Both the position numbers and the translations under genes were made by a program. This document shows, in pieces, positions 269-22,664 of a stretch of 22,664 nucleotides of DNA (positions within the stretch are counted from its first letter, which is position 1; every line of letters begins with the position of its first letter). The stretch is from Bifidobacterium breve (GTDB lineage Bacteria; Bacteroidota; Bacteroidia; Chitinophagales; Chitinophagaceae): NCBI GenBank assembly GCA_943323935.2, contig CALPJR020000002.1, positions 1-22,664 of the forward strand, in the 5' to 3' direction. The notes below the pieces were generated by a model. It had not been told where the DNA came from. It made no database searches and saw only the letters and a list, made by a program, of their open reading frames with translations.

Positions 269-293
269 CGTTCCATTTCCGTAATTGGGAACA
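269..293 (+). promoter_or_regulatory. Operator candidate, copy A
   Basis: Inverted repeat CGTTCC-N13-GGAACA. It matches the two copies at 2091-2115 and 3070-3094 in 20 of 25 bases when all are read in the direction of the gene downstream. It overlaps the TTG (285-287) of the promoter proposed for the SnoaL gene at 364, a position suited to repression or activation. Binding protein unknown; the nearby AraC-type regulator is the natural candidate. Confidence 0.6.
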
Positions 294-315
294 TATTAAT
301 ACAACCATATTTTTG
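285..315 (+). promoter_or_regulatory. Bacteroidota-type promoter of the SnoaL gene
   Basis: TTG at 285-287, a 20-base spacer, then TATTTTTG at 308-315, an exact match to the TAnnTTTG -7 element of Bacteroidota. Transcription would start near 321, leaving a leader of about 43 bases before the ATG at 364. Confidence 0.55.
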
Positions 316-363
316 CATGACTACCCTTGCGACCTAATTTTAAGGCAATTAAAAATTATAATT

Positions 364-852
364 ATGAAAAAATTGATCTCAATGGCTTTTATGTTGACCT
401 TAGTATTATTTAGTTCTTTTGCAGTTCAAGCGCAAAAAATGGACCAAGCTTCAAAGAACATAAAGTTTTACGGTCAAGTTTGGGATGTGGTAGTCAATGA
501 AGGTAGAGTGAATGTATTAGATACTGCTTTTGCTGATAATGTGATTTTACACACGACACCTGCTGTAACTGGCAAGGCGAATGCAATCGCTTACTATGCA
601 AATTATGTAACAGGATTTAGTAACAGACAATTTACCGTAAGAGAATCTCTTGCACAAGGCAATAAAGTCGTAAAATACTGGAACTTTAAGGGCAAGCATA
701 CCGGTACTTTCTTTGGTATTCCTGCAACCAATAAGGATGTGGATGTGGTTGGCTGCACTATTGCGACTATCGTAAATGGTAAAATCACAGAAGAGCGTGA
801 TTTTATGGACATGTTAGAATTCTTACAACAATTAGGCATCATGCCTCGTTAA
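364..852 (+). CDS. Secreted SnoaL-like (NTF2-fold) protein
   Basis: 162 residues from the ATG at 364. An upstream in-frame start exists, but the signal peptide begins at this ATG (MKKLISMAFMLTLVLFSSFA, followed by VQAQ). The mature part resembles the SnoaL/ester cyclase branch of the NTF2-like fold: an N-terminal helix with FYGQVWDVVVNEG, FADNVILHTT, a turn with TGKANAIAYYANYV, and C-terminal strands with VVGCTIATIVNGKITEERDF. The motif KITEERDFMD near the end is typical of SnoaL-like proteins. The fold is a cone-shaped pocket for small hydrophobic ligands; the substrate here is unknown and no enzyme activity can be claimed. The stop codon overlaps the convergent AraC gene by four bases. An operator candidate and promoter lie upstream. 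It shares fold and location with the lipoprotein at 3169. Confidence 0.85.
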   Translation: MKKLISMAFMLTLVLFSSFAVQAQKMDQASKNIKFYGQVWDVVVNEGRVNVLDTAFADNVILHTTPAVTGKANAIAYYANYVTGFSNRQFTVRESLAQGNKVVKYWNFKGKHTGTFFGIPATNKDVDVVGCTIATIVNGKITEERDFMDMLEFLQQLGIMPR

Positions 853-2045
853 GCTTCTTTGGAGCTCATCGATTTTATAAAAGCGGAAGGGGTCACTCCC
901 TTTCGCTCTTTAAAAGCGTCAATGAATTTAGACCTGGACGCAAATCCCGCATTGGTTGCAATGGCTTCGATCGTTAGATTCTTTGATTCGCCCGCTTGGA
1001 TTAAGCTACATACATAATCGATTCTCAAATTTTTTCTCCATTCGCTAAATGAAATCACAAGCGTTTTATTAAAGTAATTTGATAAAAATCTTTCTGGTAT
1101 TTTCAAGTCAAAAGACATTTGAGAAAGTGAAAATTCTTTTTGAACAAAGGGCGAGTTCAATAAGTAGCTTTGAATAATCTGCTCTATATCCTGAATGGTA
1201 GCAGCTTCCTTTTGCTTCTTAGGCAAATTTAATTTAAGCTCCTCGATGATATTATTTTTTCCTTCTTCGATGGTATAAGACACATTACCATAAAGGATCT
1301 TAGGAAATAAGAATAAGAAAATGTTTTGTAAGAAAAATCCGCCGCCACAAATTTCAAAATAATATTTCTCGCTAAATAAAGTAGTGGATGGGATTCCAAG
1401 CACATTAAATTGTACACCGTATAATGTACTCATATGGCCTATGCTATTGATTGCAATAATTATTTGCATCGAACATAGTAAATAAAACCACCTGCTTAAA
1501 ATTGAATGGTTGGATGAAAGCCTGCTATTTTCTTTTAATAGTCTTTTACTATGCAAATAAAAATAGCCAATAGAAAAAACAGCATAAGATAAAAGATGAA
1601 TTGATCTTGAATAAAGGATAAATTCAAATGACACAAAATTAAAATCGAGTGTATAATTTTCAGTCACATTGACAATTTCATGAGCAATGTTTGCCTTTTG
1701 ATCAAAAGGGAGGGTGGTGAATGGCAGGCAATTGATGACAATAAAAGCGGCAGGCAGTAAATGCAACCAATCCCATTTCTCAAGCTTATTATTGTCTGAC
1801 AAGGTCGTCTTTACATAGAAAAACAATAGAGGGCCTAGTAAATAGGATAAGGGTAGCCAATGCACAAAGCTGATGCCTTCCCAAAAGAGGTCCTTTGAAA
1901 AATGAAGTCCATAATAGACCATCACCACTAGGTTACAACACAAGAAAAAAAGTGCTAAGAATATATTCGATCTATTTAAAGAACTTAAATAGTATAAAAG
2001 AATGAATGAAGTAAAAATCCCAAATAAAGGAAATAGTATAGCCAT
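849..2045 (-). CDS. Membrane-bound AraC family transcriptional regulator (7TM-type sensor)
   Basis: 398 residues from the ATG at 2045. A TTG eleven codons upstream (2078) is possible but less likely. Residues 1 to about 235 are strongly hydrophobic and read as some seven membrane helices (starting MAILFPLFGIFTSFILLYYL). After a linker rich in charged residues, the last ~100 residues form the AraC DNA-binding domain with two helix-turn-helix units: FSLSQMSFDLKIPERFLSNY and, near the end, TIEAIATNAGFASRSKFIDA followed by FKERKGVTPSAF, the typical second-helix signature. Such proteins couple a membrane sensor directly to transcription. A terminator at 2138-2170 separates it from the upstream lipoprotein gene, so it needs its own promoter; the operator candidate at 2091-2115 sits just upstream and suggests autoregulation. 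The signal sensed is unknown. Confidence 0.88.
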   Translation of the reverse strand: MAILFPLFGIFTSFILLYYLSSLNRSNIFLALFFLCCNLVVMVYYGLHFSKDLFWEGISFVHWLPLSYLLGPLLFFYVKTTLSDNNKLEKWDWLHLLPAAFIVINCLPFTTLPFDQKANIAHEIVNVTENYTLDFNFVSFEFILYSRSIHLLSYAVFSIGYFYLHSKRLLKENSRLSSNHSILSRWFYLLCSMQIIIAINSIGHMSTLYGVQFNVLGIPSTTLFSEKYYFEICGGGFFLQNIFLFLFPKILYGNVSYTIEEGKNNIIEELKLNLPKKQKEAATIQDIEQIIQSYLLNSPFVQKEFSLSQMSFDLKIPERFLSNYFNKTLVISFSEWRKNLRIDYVCSLIQAGESKNLTIEAIATNAGFASRSKFIDAFKERKGVTPSAFIKSMSSKEA

Positions 2046-2090
2046 AAATGGATGATTACTAGTTGAGTATGATGTCAAGATAAGTAAAAA

Positions 2091-2115
2091 TGTTCCAAAT
2101 TACTAAAAAGGAACA
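2091..2115 (-). promoter_or_regulatory. Operator candidate, copy B, upstream of the AraC gene
   Basis: Perfect inverted repeat TGTTCC-N13-GGAACA with half-site centres 19 bases apart, about two helical turns. It is part of a 31-base stretch (2085-2115) repeated at 3064-3094 with a single mismatch. It lies 45 bases upstream of the AraC start codon. I did not find a clean TAnnTTTG element downstream; a TATCTTG lies between site and gene. Confidence 0.65.
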
Positions 2116-2137
2116 GCATCCTATCCCATTTAGGCCA

Positions 2138-2170
2138 AAAAAGGCCCAGGCAATTTGCCCAGGCCTTTTT
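2138..2170 (-). terminator. Rho-independent terminator of the lipoprotein gene
   Basis: AAAAAGGCC pairs with GGCCTTTTT; inside it a CA/CA mismatch and a GGC/GCC stem close an AATTT loop. It is flanked by A and T runs on both sides, so it may work in both directions. It lies 27 bases past the stop of the gene ending at 2197. Confidence 0.85.
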
Positions 2171-2196
2171 ATAGAACCAAACTTAAAACTTATAAT

Positions 2197-2988
2197 TTAC
2201 TTGCTTACACGCTTGTAAGTCTTAATACTAGTTACTTTATTTACCGTATCAGAAATGGTTTGAGTGAACTCGTCTGGACCGTTGAAAGTCACAGGGATAT
2301 TGAATTTACCTACCCAAGTTCTATTGCTAGAAAAAGTTAAATCTTCGATTAATAAACCGTTGCTTAAAGTAAAGCTACCCTTACCAATGTGGTTAGCCAT
2401 AACATTAGTAGTCGTATCAGTTACTGCTCTTGCAGCCCACATGAAATGACCAGCTTGGTATACTTTATATTCATTATATGTATTAACAACTGAATCTTGA
2501 CCAGTCACATTGATACTTTTTGTTTGATGCCATAAGCCATCTAAATCAGATGTGCCAGTACCTTCTAACTTAGTATAATCTTCAGAACCACTCCATTTAG
2601 CGCCACGAACCATGATTTCAGAAATCTTCTGGTTGTAACCTTTCTCGTTCTTTGTGATGGCTAATTTAGCAGTACTTGCTGTATCTAATGATCCTGTATT
2701 GAATATGTTTACTTCTTCTATATTGTTCGCGTCTGTCTGAGTGTAAGATCCAACACCAAATGAAATCGCACTATCCTTGCCTTCTGCAATATAAAAATAG
2801 GAGTCAGCCGTGTAAATTTTAAATTGGGTATTGCCATCGGTCGCTAAAGCTTCATTGTCTTTTGTACCATCATTCCAAACCACCCTGTCTAAAGAATACA
2901 CACCAGCCTGAGATGTTGGGGCTTCTGGTTGAGCGCAACTAGCTAAAATAGCAGCCATTGCAAATCCTACAATCGTTGTTTTTTTCAT
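2197..2988 (-). CDS. Lipoprotein with two lipocalin-like repeats, function unknown
   Basis: 263 residues starting MKKTTIVGFAMAAILASC; LASC is a good lipobox, making Cys18 the lipidated residue. The mature part seems to hold two copies of one domain. Repeat 1 (about 29-142) has GVYSLDRVVWNDG, FKIYTADSYFYIAEG (57-71), GVGSYT and YNQKIS; repeat 2 (about 151-262) has GLWHQTKSI, YKVYQAGHFMWAARAV (174-189), GKGSFT and FTQTIS in the same order. This pattern of short strands recalls lipocalin-like or DUF4488-like secreted proteins, but I cannot name the family firmly. The gene has its own terminator and an operator candidate 82 bases upstream, in the region shared with the divergent SnoaL-like lipoprotein. 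A short hairpin (ACTTCA-TTG-TGAAGT, 3036-3050) lies in its leader. Confidence 0.8.
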   Translation of the reverse strand: MKKTTIVGFAMAAILASCAQPEAPTSQAGVYSLDRVVWNDGTKDNEALATDGNTQFKIYTADSYFYIAEGKDSAISFGVGSYTQTDANNIEEVNIFNTGSLDTASTAKLAITKNEKGYNQKISEIMVRGAKWSGSEDYTKLEGTGTSDLDGLWHQTKSINVTGQDSVVNTYNEYKVYQAGHFMWAARAVTDTTTNVMANHIGKGSFTLSNGLLIEDLTFSSNRTWVGKFNIPVTFNGPDEFTQTISDTVNKVTSIKTYKRVSK

Positions 2989-3069
2989 TTTAATGTTTTT
3001 TGGTTTAAGCGTTTAGGTCATGAATTTAGGAACTTACTTCATTGTGAAGTGGAAATGAATTGTTAAAAA

Positions 3070-3094
3070 TGTTCCAAATTATTAAAAAGGAACA
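3070..3094 (-). promoter_or_regulatory. Operator candidate, copy C, between divergent lipoprotein genes
   Basis: Perfect inverted repeat TGTTCC-N13-GGAACA, nearly identical to the copy at 2091-2115 (31 bases with one mismatch). It lies 81 bases from the lipoprotein start at 2988 and 74 bases from the SnoaL-like lipoprotein start at 3169, so it could control either or both. The non-symmetric spacer has the same orientation toward the minus-strand gene as the copy upstream of the AraC gene. Confidence 0.65.
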
Positions 3095-3168
3095 AATGTT
3101 AGACATAATCTGATGCCATCTCCTTCACTTAACATTACATTGATGCTTCAATCAAAAATTAAATTCCT

Positions 3169-3687
3169 ATGAAAAAATTCATTTTAGCATGTCTTGTGGT
3201 AAGCACCATCATTGCATGTTCTCCAAAAACAGAAACAGCAAGTACATTTGCGGCTCCTGCAGATTTAAATAGTTATAATCTTGACAGTTCAGCGAATATT
3301 GATTTGGTAAAAAAGATGGCAGTAGCTTTTGAATCCATGGATTCGGCAACTTACAGATCATTGTATGCAGATTCAGCTATATTCCATGACAATATGATTG
3401 ATATGACTTTGGTTCAGAATCTAGGTTTATTTAATTTATTCAAATCAAACGGAATCACTGTTAAAGTGGAGAAAGTAGACCCAATTTGGGAAATAGTGAA
3501 TAAAGTAGCTTCACCAAATGGCGTTACCAATTATGTGATGTCATTTCATCATACGACTTATATCAAAGGAGATAAGCAAGTAAAATTAATTGTAAATGTG
3601 GTGAATGGAATGAAAGATGGTAAAATTGTGGAAGAGTGGGATATATATGACACAAAACCATTGTTGGATTTAATGAATCAAAAATAG
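3169..3687 (+). CDS. SnoaL-like (NTF2-fold) lipoprotein
   Basis: 172 residues starting MKKFILACLVVSTIIAC; IIAC is a lipobox with Cys17 as lipidation site, so it is probably attached to a membrane facing the periplasm or the surface. After a ~25-residue linker the domain has an NTF2/SnoaL layout: VKKMAVAFESMDSATYRSLY, ADSAIFHDN, an amphipathic middle with LFNLFKSNG, then strands with VMSFHHTTYIKGDKQVKLIVNVVNGMKDGKIVEEWDIYD read across residues about 125-163. The end (KIVEEWDIYD) parallels KITEERDFMD of the SnoaL protein at 364, so the two may be distant paralogues. It has a strong terminator downstream and an operator candidate upstream. Ligand or substrate unknown. Confidence 0.78.
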   Translation: MKKFILACLVVSTIIACSPKTETASTFAAPADLNSYNLDSSANIDLVKKMAVAFESMDSATYRSLYADSAIFHDNMIDMTLVQNLGLFNLFKSNGITVKVEKVDPIWEIVNKVASPNGVTNYVMSFHHTTYIKGDKQVKLIVNVVNGMKDGKIVEEWDIYDTKPLLDLMNQK

Positions 3688-13148: not shown

Positions 13149-14774
13149 ATGACATTTCAAGAACAATTGGACCACTTAATTATAGAAAAGCAGGCCATTC
13201 CTGAGGCTTTTGCATTACCAGCATTGATCGATCAAAGGACCTATCTATCTGACGGTGAGTTAGTTACTTGGGATGGTCCAACCCATGAGGTCTTTTCACC
13301 CATTTGTATGCACACCCCAGATGGTGTACAGCGCATTAAGATAGGATCCTATCCTGTATGTACAGAGAAGGAGGCGAAGATCGCATTAGATGCAGCATGC
13401 AAAGCTTATAATGATGGTAGAGGTGAGTGGCCAACCATGTCAGTTGCACAAAGAATTAATTGCGTTGAACAGTTTGTTGTAAAAATGCTAGCGCAAAAAG
13501 AGATTGTAGTGAAATTGATTATGTGGGAGATTGGAAAAACCTATGCAGACTCTGAAAAGGAGTTTGACAGAACAGTGGAATATATTTATGCTACCATCGA
13601 AGCACTAAAAGATATCGATAGAGACTCCTCAAGGTTCACCATCGAACAAGGTATTGTTGCGCAAATCAGAAGATCACCGTTAGGGGTTGTTCTGTGTATG
13701 GGTCCATTCAATTATCCATTAAATGAGACTTTCACTACTTTGATCCCTGCAATCATCATGGGCAATACCTTATTGTTTAAGGCACCAAAGCACGGAACCT
13801 TATTGCATTACCCGATGTTAGAAGCATTTAAATCTTGTTTCCCTAAGGGCGTTGTGAATACGATTTATGGAAGAGGTAATGTGATCATCCCTGCATTGAT
13901 GGAGTCTGGCAAGATCAATGTATTGACGCTTATTGGATCAAGTAAAGTAGCCAATCAATTAAAAAAATTACATCCAAAAGTAAATAGATTGAGAGCCATT
14001 TTAGGTTTAGATGCTAAGAACGCAGCCATTATCACAAAGGATGCGGATATTAAATTGGCTGTTCAAGAAACTGTTTTAGGATCACTATCATTCAATGGCC
14101 AAAGATGTACAGCACTTAAAACCATTTTTGTGCATCAATCTATTGCTAAAGAATTCATTGAATTATTAAAAGAGCAGGTGGCAAAATTACAATTTGGGTT
14201 GCCTTGGGAAAAAGGCGTGACTTTGACGCCGCTACCAGAGCCAGGTAAGCCAGCTTATTTAAATGATTTAATAGAGGATGCGAAATTACATGGAGCAGCT
14301 GTGATGAATGAAAATGGCGGTACCATTAAAGAAACATTTTTCTATCCAGCTATCTTGTTTCCAGTGAATCATAAAATGAAGATCTATACCGAAGAACAAT
14401 TTGGTCCAATTATACCAGTTATTCCATTTGAGGACATTGAAGAGCCTATCCAATATATCATTGAGTCAACACATGGTCAGCAGGTTAGTTTGTTCTCAAA
14501 AAATCAATCTGAACTAGCAAGTTTAATTGACCCATTGGTGAACCAAGTGAGCAGGGTAAATATCAATTGCCAATGTCAAAGAGGTCCAGATAGTTTTCCA
14601 TTCACAGGACGTAAGGACAGTGCAGAAGGCACTTTGTCTGTAGTAGATGCATTAAGATCTTTTTCGATTAGGTCTTTAGTGGCAGCAAAATTAACCGAGG
14701 AGAACAAGCATATTATCAATGACATTGTATCCTCTCATCATTCTAATTTCTTAAGTACGAAGTTTATATTTTAA
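13149..14774 (+). CDS. GapN-like NADP-dependent glyceraldehyde-3-phosphate dehydrogenase (aldehyde dehydrogenase superfamily)
   Basis: 541 residues, longer than Streptococcus GapN (~475). Family landmarks: GPFNYPLNETF (oxyanion Asn188), NTLLFKAPKHG (the lysine of the cofactor site), LIGSSKVA, FNGQRCTALK (catalytic Cys320), EEQFGP (Glu415/416) and PFTGRKDSAEG near the end. The closest annotated group I recall is non-phosphorylating GAPDH, which oxidises glyceraldehyde 3-phosphate to 3-phosphoglycerate with NADPH formation. One point is odd: in ordinary aldehyde dehydrogenases a catalytic glutamate stands in ELGGK, 34 residues before the cysteine. Here that segment reads GLDAKN and the aligned residue is Gly286, exactly 34 before Cys320. 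I believe this variant is shared by a subfamily, not a lesion. Substrate is therefore less certain than family. Confidence 0.82.
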   Translation: MTFQEQLDHLIIEKQAIPEAFALPALIDQRTYLSDGELVTWDGPTHEVFSPICMHTPDGVQRIKIGSYPVCTEKEAKIALDAACKAYNDGRGEWPTMSVAQRINCVEQFVVKMLAQKEIVVKLIMWEIGKTYADSEKEFDRTVEYIYATIEALKDIDRDSSRFTIEQGIVAQIRRSPLGVVLCMGPFNYPLNETFTTLIPAIIMGNTLLFKAPKHGTLLHYPMLEAFKSCFPKGVVNTIYGRGNVIIPALMESGKINVLTLIGSSKVANQLKKLHPKVNRLRAILGLDAKNAAIITKDADIKLAVQETVLGSLSFNGQRCTALKTIFVHQSIAKEFIELLKEQVAKLQFGLPWEKGVTLTPLPEPGKPAYLNDLIEDAKLHGAAVMNENGGTIKETFFYPAILFPVNHKMKIYTEEQFGPIIPVIPFEDIEEPIQYIIESTHGQQVSLFSKNQSELASLIDPLVNQVSRVNINCQCQRGPDSFPFTGRKDSAEGTLSVVDALRSFSIRSLVAAKLTEENKHIINDIVSSHHSNFLSTKFIF

Positions 14775-21307: not shown

Positions 21308-22072
21308 TTAATGCATCTCCGATCTTAATAGTTTTAAAAGCGCGTCATTGCTTTTTTTAATTCTATAAATATTCATACGGTAGTAAAATATGAAGTTATA
21401 ATACTTTTGCACTTCATATATATATTCATCTGATTGTAAAATATCCTTAGTTTTATCTAGGCTTAACATAAAATTTAAGAATGCATTCTCATCATTTAAA
21501 TCGTATTCATTACTTGCATTTTGATAAGCTCTAAATGTTACCCCTAGACCAATTGGTAAATATTTATTGTAATCAATAGCTGCTTGATCAAAAAATTGAT
21601 TTGCAGCTTCTATAGACTTAAAGTTGACTTCGTAATAGGTAGCTAATGTATTTTTTAATTCCCCCTCTTCTAAGTAACTCAATAATCCACTTGACTGCAT
21701 ATTTTTAAAAGAACTATTGTTTACATATAGTGTTAAAGAAATTGCATTTAGTTTAGGCTTTAATTTAAATGAATCTATTAATTGTTGTTCAGTTATTTTA
21801 TTATTTTTTGCTAAGTATAATAAATTATTAAGCCTATTAAAACTATTAATCGACTTATCTTCCATATCAAGTATTTTTATTATCTCGCTAGAATCTGCTT
21901 GTAAGTCCTTTAAAATTGCTATTTTGTTTTGCTCAACACGATGTTCCATAATCTGATGTTCTCTTAGATTTTCTGCAAGAAAACCCAAAGTAACTGCCGC
22001 AAATAGCATGATAAATTCAGTAATATACTCTTTCCAGTTTTTTGGTTTGTGCGAGTGGTGATGTACTTCCAT
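21308..22072 (-). CDS. Single-pass membrane protein of unknown function (MEVHHH family)
   Basis: 254 residues from the ATG at 22072 (an in-frame TTG at 22111 is less likely). The N-terminus MEVHHHSHKPKNWKEYITEF leads into one membrane helix (about 17-35, IMLFAAVTLGFLAENLREH), after which a long helical domain follows (KIAILKDLQADSSEIIKILD and onward) rich in Asn, Leu and Lys, with Tyr-rich segments near the end. I recognise this opening from uncharacterised proteins in Bacteroidota; no function is known to me. The His-rich, basic N-terminus is probably cytoplasmic and the large domain periplasmic. It lies upstream of the SPFH gene on the same strand, 108 bases apart, each with its own leader. 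Confidence 0.75.
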   Translation of the reverse strand: MEVHHHSHKPKNWKEYITEFIMLFAAVTLGFLAENLREHQIMEHRVEQNKIAILKDLQADSSEIIKILDMEDKSINSFNRLNNLLYLAKNNKITEQQLIDSFKLKPKLNAISLTLYVNNSSFKNMQSSGLLSYLEEGELKNTLATYYEVNFKSIEAANQFFDQAAIDYNKYLPIGLGVTFRAYQNASNEYDLNDENAFLNFMLSLDKTKDILQSDEYIYEVQKYYNFIFYYRMNIYRIKKSNDALLKLLRSEMH

Positions 22073-22146
22073 ATTTAAATTTAATAATTGAAAATAAGAT
22101 TTTGTTCTCAATTTCTCTGAGCAATTTGCAGCTATTTTACCCCATT

Positions 22147-22229: not shown

Positions 22230-22613
22230 TTAATCAGCAGCATAAAATCTTCTGTACAATTGATCTGCCATATATACGCCATTGGTTTCTTTGTTCTTAT
22301 TCGCCCAAGCTTTAAATTTTGGATGGTCATGGATTGTCTTGTAATCTGCTTCAGAAGTCCAATGTCCAATTGTACAATTTCTGTAAGTCTTTGTGGTATC
22401 AGATGCAGCTAATTTAAAATAACTATAGTAATTCTTAGGGAATCCCATCTCGGCCATGATCGCATTGATTTCTTTTAGGCTAGCAATATAGGTTTTCTCC
22501 ATATCTGCGTTTTTAACATCATAAAAATGGACAGAATTGATTGCCTTTTGAGCAGTAGCTGTCATGTTAAATCCAATTGCGCAAAGCATTAGTAAAAAGA
22601 TGATTTTTTTCAT
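22230..22613 (-). CDS. Small secreted protein, probably dimeric alpha/beta-barrel
   Basis: 127 residues from the ATG at 22613; a frame reaching 22646 adds residues before the signal peptide and is unlikely. The signal peptide is MKKIIFLLMLCAIGFNMTAT, ending AQ. The mature ~100 residues begin INSVHFYDVKNADMEKTYIA, followed by LKEINAIMAEMGFPKNYYSY, TYRNCTIGHWTSEADYKTIH and HPKFKAWANKNKE. The order strand-helix-strand with a W and a late helix resembles NIPSNAP or dimeric alpha/beta-barrel (ABM-like) proteins, but no catalytic residue can be named. It has its own terminator downstream. Bases 22614-22664 hold only an AT-rich leader and part of its promoter. Confidence 0.75.
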   Translation of the reverse strand: MKKIIFLLMLCAIGFNMTATAQKAINSVHFYDVKNADMEKTYIASLKEINAIMAEMGFPKNYYSYFKLAASDTTKTYRNCTIGHWTSEADYKTIHDHPKFKAWANKNKETNGVYMADQLYRRFYAAD

Positions 22614-22664
22614 GTTTGTTATTTTTTGATTAATTAAAATTTCCAACCTTCTCTTTTTTTAAGA

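Follow-up and report, generated by a model that had tools for sequence, protein, structure and literature searches.

The DNA analyzed here is a 22,664-nucleotide stretch (hereinafter the window; contig CALPJR020000002.1, assembly GCA_943323935.2, placed by GTDB in Chitinophagaceae) which codes for a regulator of the AraC type, predicted to span the membrane with seven helices, and carries three copies of a 25-bp inverted repeat, YGTTCC-N13-GGAACA (hereinafter the dyad), one upstream of the regulator gene and two upstream of genes for small exported proteins. The dyad recurs in relatives that possess this regulator, and at its target genes it stands at a fixed distance from a box resembling the -7 promoter element of Bacteroidota. 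Judging from these sequence patterns, we consider it likely that a dimer of the membrane-bound AraC protein occupies the symmetric dyad and turns on genes for small exported SnoaL-like proteins and lipoproteins.

A direct check confirmed the three copies at the coordinates given in a preliminary description of this stretch (Table 1), with a spacer of 13 bp in each; the copies at 2091 and 3070 are perfect TGTTCC/GGAACA dyads, and that at 269 starts with C in place of T. First-order Markov simulations of the window yield a mean of 0.0005 dyads, and three were reached in none of 2000 simulations. The preliminary description noticed no further copies, and indeed the only additional match in the window with up to two mismatches is one with two at 14060, and chance alone would account for about two of that kind. 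It had also proposed that an asymmetric spacer core, TTTnnRTAATT, keeps one orientation relative to the downstream gene. While all three window sites display this pattern in the orientation chosen there, its role as an orientation signal is not supported, given the outcome of a random-flip test (p = 0.40 for 43 oriented unique sites, mostly from relatives) and its rarity (10 of 200 gene sides); moreover, the 3070 dyad sits between divergent genes, both of which show the target spacing.

The window was compared with 37 relative AraC loci (L-numbers) drawn from metagenome-assembled genomes, mostly labeled Bacteroidetes, Chitinophaga, Sediminibacterium or Cytophagaceae. Across the window and these loci, 43 copies of TGTTCC-Nk-GGAACA have k = 13, two of them in the window, and four have k = 14; no copy has any other k from 0 to 30, and a control with reversed half-sites gave one match in total. 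The dyads with 14-bp spacers (L002 at 9815, L004 at 595 and 1575, L024 at 4654, along with the SnoaL promoters of G420, G445, G452, G456 and G457) occupy orthologous places; hence, a spacer longer by one base pair seems to be acceptable to the regulator in some lineages.

Such a symmetric dyad is what dimers of the TetR, LuxR or Crp type typically recognize, and in 16 of the 37 relative loci araC itself lies within 300 bp downstream of a dyad, just as other targets do. The dyad could accordingly be read by another regulator encoded elsewhere, with araC being only one of its targets. We regard this as unlikely because AraC is the most widely shared gene family, common to 35 of the 38 loci, with the next three families, which have target members, found in 21, 17 and 10 (families in this count are only partly annotated). 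Further, 41 of the 133 exact dyads in 37 genomes (81.1 Mb; the total leaves out G280) fall within the 584.6 kb around AraC, i.e., 0.7% of the genome, as against about 0.96 expected, and of the 18 dyads on seven long contigs, 14 are no more than 25 kb away from AraC versus 4.4 expected. This concentration bears out part of the earlier notion of a local regulon; the strict sense of "local" does not survive, as most of the relatives' dyads lie outside these stretches. In G280, all seven dyads are on contigs other than that of AraC.

The distribution of the dyad across genomes points in the same direction. In a genus-level group of 147 genomes, a search with the N-terminal domain of the regulator identified 40 carriers (56–92% identity; several matches are partial, and G527 and G528 count as carriers through a 71% match located at the end of a contig). 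The carriers contain 149 exact dyads in 83.7 Mb (1.78/Mb), with none for the reversed-pattern control, as compared to 38 in 300.1 Mb (0.127/Mb) in the 107 non-carriers, with 11 for the control; many of the non-carrier dyads listed have GC-rich spacers unlike those of the operators. At least three dyads are present in 30 of the 40 carriers and in none of the 107 non-carriers. Dyads with one mismatch are uninformative, numbering 6 to 13 per genome versus 2 to 9 for the reversed control. In a family-level set of 394 genomes, sampled evenly from a larger group, three have an AraC ortholog (74–87% identical N-domain), and these have the top dyad counts (6, 6 and 7), with all others having at most four; four further genomes have AraC matches of only 31–32%.

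Orthologous promoters offer a further comparison. The promoter of the SnoaL gene retains the dyad in 26 of 26 cases (the window and 25 carriers, the spacer being 14 bp long in five), whereas among the non-carriers it is present in two of 17 and absent in 15. Carrier promoters were accepted with YGTTCC...GGAACR and a 13- or 14-bp spacer, and non-carrier promoters with an exact dyad spaced by 12–14 bp or with up to three mismatches. The carrier test left out G496, G503 and G526, and G015 has no upstream DNA; the non-carrier test took 17 of the 18 genomes with an ortholog (G432 was left out), with G488 offering only 57 bp of upstream sequence. In the two non-carrier exceptions, the sequence breaks just where AraC would lie: the G471 contig ends 5 bp after SnoaL, and the SnoaL match in G534 stops at residue 63. 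AraC may be missing from these assemblies or lost. G015, G445 and G456 keep a single exact 13-bp dyad genome-wide, directly upstream of AraC. In G016, G421 and G425, where the recognition region of the AraC copy examined has diverged, we found 0, 0 and 1 dyads, these genomes not having been searched for a closer AraC copy, while G422–G424 have a second, closer AraC (63–64%) with a dyad upstream. A recognition-region valine of the L025 protein alone does not explain such differences, since L026 (G015) shares it yet has a dyad. Together, the genome scans and the orthologous promoters support the view that the dyad set tracks the AraC gene, a test that the preliminary description had suggested.

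The promoter geometry is the second line of evidence. The 147 distinct sites comprise 68 with a single gene within 300 bp, 66 with a divergent pair in that range, 11 inside open reading frames (ORFs) of at least 170 aa and two with neither gene nor ORF. The Bacteroidota -7 element is described as TAnnTTTG (PMC7366714), and a TAnnTT box starts 53–55 bp from the dyad center at 113 of 179 target (non-AraC) gene sides, with an offset of +54 in 84, +53 in 21 and +55 in eight; the commonest other offset accounts for 11. Shuffled flanks have a mean of 8.7 and a maximum of 16 boxes at these offsets (200 shuffles), and upon dereplication of the flanks the box is kept at 75 of 121. Control genes from the same stretches show TAnnTT at the matching distance from the ATG in 28 of 384 cases and at the best distance in 44. 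The dyad-to-box distance has a spread of 0.5 bp, as compared to a 5–95% range of 16–69 bp from box to ATG. The arrangement is also directional: of 58 single-gene non-AraC sites, 46 have the box on the side facing the gene and two on the opposite side, and the 66 divergent sites have it on both sides in 15, on one in 37 and on neither in 14. At least one boxed member is found in 18 of the 42 non-AraC gene families, and at the three target promoters of the window the box lies exactly 54 bp from the dyad center. Thus, the motif is neither scattered without relation to promoters nor lost in related genomes, the two outcomes that the preliminary description named as contradicting it.

With the -7 box starting 53–55 bp downstream, the dyad center would lie near -65, a position resembling that of class I activators. 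In class I activation, CRP sits at -61.5. The target sites likewise have a putative activator dyad that stands far upstream from the core promoter in fixed helical phase, and at 113 of 179 sides the distance to the predicted core promoter is fixed without overlap; they differ in belonging to the Bacteroidota polymerase with its TAnnTTTG promoters (PMC7366714). The same source cites the -33 element as not identifiable in Flavobacterium johnsoniae, and in our data TTG occurs 19–24 bp upstream of the box in 15 of 113 targets versus seven of 35 control boxes. This geometry bears on whether AraC might bind the dyad to repress its targets, with a signal lifting the repression. The window dyad covering the presumed -33 region of araC suggests that repression could occur there; however, the target dyads lie some 20–30 bp upstream of any -33 element, where blocking is unlikely and activation common, and their spacing to the -7 box is constant within a base pair, making repression of the targets very unlikely.

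Although inverted repeats are common and a hairpin of the same shape, TTGGCA-N13-TGCCAA, is dispersed in Cytophagaceae-type relatives, it is scarcely credible that the dyads are non-regulatory, given that chance is excluded by the simulations and genome counts, that the half-sites are conserved across sites and the spacer sequence is not, and that their position, a fixed distance ahead of -7-like boxes lying toward the gene and hence before the presumed transcription start, rules out an RNA hairpin, terminator or mobile repeat. The TTGGCA-N13-TGCCAA element was itself considered as a second 6-13-6 operator, upstream of the Cytophagaceae-type paralogs, and rejected: it is present in 66, 42 and 49 copies in G422–G424 and in 6, 11 and 23 copies in G016, G421 and G425, with spacers of 13, 14 or 16 in the AraC-locus stretches (L025, L028, L029, L031 and L032), and looks like a repeat or terminator family.

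The products of the boxed genes have a shared character. By simple in-house rules, a hydrophobic N-terminus is present in 108 of 110 and a lipobox in 60 of 110, as against 220 and 38 of 384 controls. Pfam matches among representatives of the target families comprise SnoaL, SnoaL_2, DUF4440, Lipocalin_5, alpha/beta hydrolase, esterase, fatty acid hydroxylase, TPR and a propeller-SpoIIE phosphatase, with no match for the other representatives. The proposal that small exported proteins form a group recognizable by the dyad is supported. In L006, L011, L030 and L033, a large propeller/SpoIIE-type gene lies behind a boxed dyad (Pfam was run on the L006 gene only), and the next genes in L006 (138, 113 and 712 aa) resemble a partner-switch set by eye.

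The regulator itself has an AraC-type helix-turn-helix (HTH) at its C-terminus that scores above the curated cut-offs (HTH_18, 50.9 bits against 33.6; HTH_AraC, 37.7 against 26.6). Its N-domain, approximately residues 1–255, has seven membrane helices in models; these and the hydrophobic stretches of the protein point to a sensor and a DNA-binding domain that would be combined in one membrane protein. Of the four N-domains examined, three, including that of the window, match no Pfam family up to E 5, though remote kinship is possible; for the fourth (L026) there are just two matches, both below the cut-off, DUF6105 (0.022) and RseC_MucC (3.7). A sequence search against solved structures gave no match at E 1e-5, and the matches listed for the N-domain are of GPCR (G-protein-coupled receptor) type only, which does not exclude other types. 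In 29 aligned relatives, the whole protein is 57–91% identical and the N-domain strongly conserved, with H48, H95, H122, E141, R147 and H150 among its invariant polar residues. With a threshold of E 0.001, we recovered 645 relatives of the AraC protein, of which the best 120 are 85–100% identical and, where named, carry the organism labels Chitinophagia, Sediminibacterium or Bacteroidota. A second group of membrane AraC-like proteins, with 28–33% identity, is found in the same genomes (G009, G012, G013, G017, G412 and others).

We propose that the membrane domain would bring two AraC DNA-binding domains together, and that these might then bind the two TGTTCC half-sites, which are 19 bp apart from center to center, or nearly two helical turns. 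The bound dimer would assist RNA polymerase at the TAnnTT -7 box 53–55 bp downstream, and a single dyad between divergent genes could serve both. The genes so induced would code for small exported proteins of SnoaL/DUF4440/NTF2-like, lipocalin-like, esterase-like and other types, and the trigger is probably a ligand or a membrane state sensed by the seven-helix domain. More tentatively, we raise the possibility that this domain is a receptor, perhaps GPCR-like, which is fused to the AraC domain and senses a lipid-like or small extracellular molecule that the induced proteins with hydrophobic-ligand folds would handle, with neither kinase nor second messenger being involved.

Several observations weigh against this proposal. 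Many AraC proteins bind direct repeats. Eleven of the 147 distinct sites lie inside ORFs, several of them probably by chance. No box is seen at 66 of the 179 target gene sides; some of these probably reflect a wrongly assigned neighbor, and some may have other promoters. TAnnTT is also a loose motif, and the promoters marked by it here are predicted ones. The dyad of araC lacks the target spacing (see below). G416 has AraC (70% identical) and no exact dyad, and the same is true of G496, whose AraC has an in-frame stop; it is possible that the whole circuit is decaying in the latter or that the sequence contains errors. On contig 40 of G496, this AraC adjoins a SnoaL gene in two pieces. Finally, the carriers may share ancestry, leaving a residual chance that another regulator is confined to them. 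As regards the form of the site, the AraC family is stated in PMC4266540 to usually recognize palindromes.

At the 21 araC gene sides, the box-to-dyad-center distance is 21 bp in six (the window included; three of the six have a weaker box), 32 in one, 34 in three, 68–69 in six and 89 in two, with the remaining three (L013, L014 and L034) having no assignable box; the sole L013 match, at 34, is far from the gene. The earlier claim that AraC controls its own gene is thus favored by the recurrence of the dyad upstream of araC, and is weakened by spacing that varies, unlike the 53–55 bp of the targets, and by G280, whose dyads are off the AraC contig. Autoregulation is likely in some lineages, though not with the spacing seen at the targets. 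A distance of 21 bp places the dyad over the presumed -33 region, so repression is the natural reading: in the window it would block the araC promoter, which suggests negative autoregulation. The terminator-like repeat preceding araC makes it probable that the gene has its own promoter.

Table 1. Predicted operators, promoter boxes and genes around the three dyads of the window.
Feature	Position	Strand	Support
Dyad 1, CGTTCC-N13-GGAACA, predicted operator of the SnoaL-like gene	269..293	+	ortholog promoters keep the dyad in 25/25 carriers with upstream DNA
-7 box TAATTTTA (TAATTT at 335), first T 54 bp past dyad 1 center	335..342	+	
SnoaL-like (NTF2-fold) protein, 162 aa, hydrophobic N-terminus, target gene	364..852	+	Pfam SnoaL 8.8e-28
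araC, AraC-type regulator, 398 aa, seven predicted membrane helices	849..2045	-	Pfam, homologs, models
araC -7-like box TATCTTGA, first T 21 bp past dyad 2 center	2075..2082	-	
Dyad 2, TGTTCC-N13-GGAACA, upstream of araC, overlaps presumed -33 region	2091..2115	-	
Terminator-like inverted repeat and T run, between lipoprotein gene and araC	2138..2170	-	
Lipoprotein-like protein, 263 aa, no Pfam family, target gene	2197..2988	-	box in 9/9 members of its family (family 4)
-7 box TAAATTCA (TAAATT at 3028, minus), 54 bp from dyad 3 center	3021..3028	-	
Dyad 3, TGTTCC-N13-GGAACA, symmetric, between two divergent target genes	3070..3094	none	
-7 box TACATTGA (TACATT at 3136), 54 bp from dyad 3 center	3136..3143	+	
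SnoaL-like lipoprotein, 172 aa, target gene	3169..3687	+	Pfam SnoaL 0.00098, weak, below curated cut-off

The ORFs and Pfam matches agree with the earlier assignment of the genes downstream of the three sites, namely a SnoaL-like gene, araC and a pair of lipoprotein genes. The start of araC needs revision from the TTG at 2078 to, most likely, the ATG at 2045, as in aligned homologs; the SnoaL-like gene starts with the ATG at 364 and overlaps araC tail to tail at their 3′ ends. The 172-aa SnoaL-like lipoprotein belongs to the largest target family, in which 41 of 66 members have the box. Elsewhere in the window, two minus-strand genes (21308–22111 and 22230–22646) resemble target families of the relatives, i.e., a MEVHH-type membrane protein and a 138-aa exported protein, respectively. 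There is no exact dyad beside the former, and the upstream region of the latter lies mostly outside the window.

Membrane-integrated regulators are given as only 3% of one-component systems in PMC5936718. Those of the ToxR, CadC and TcpP type unite a sensor and a DNA-binding domain in one membrane protein, as the models suggest for the present regulator; however, they are bitopic with a cytoplasmic N-terminal winged HTH, whereas here seven helices are predicted and the HTH is C-terminal and of AraC type. The AraC/XylS one-component activators (AraC, ToxT, MarA) have a soluble ligand domain, in contrast to the N-domain here, a predicted seven-helix membrane domain without a Pfam match, and differ from this system, in which the site is one symmetric dyad with a 13-bp spacer. 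Another bacterial seven-helix membrane sensor is 7TMR-DISM; it has the architecture predicted here for the sensor, whereas here the DNA-binding domain is fused and no kinase would be involved. The same likeness extends to BtsS of the LytS type (PMC10653868), with the difference that here the signal would pass directly to the fused DNA-binding domain without a kinase. An AraC protein of Mycobacterium smegmatis, MSMEG_0307, is reported to bind a palindrome in mobility shift assays, has a small regulon and is thought likely to regulate itself; its site and targets are different, and the available text mentions no membrane domain (PMC4266540). Thus, palindrome binding by an AraC protein and membrane one-component regulators are already known (PMC4266540, PMC5936718), whereas none of the titles and abstracts listed from the open-licence literature describes an AraC regulator with seven helices for which operator and regulon are defined.

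If this reading is true, the fusion of a polytopic membrane domain to AraC, for which we found no function in print, becomes a testable signaling circuit whose operator, promoter geometry and targets would be defined. A reporter on a dyad promoter offers a route to the ligand, and the geometry suggests a rule for where activators sit in Bacteroidota.

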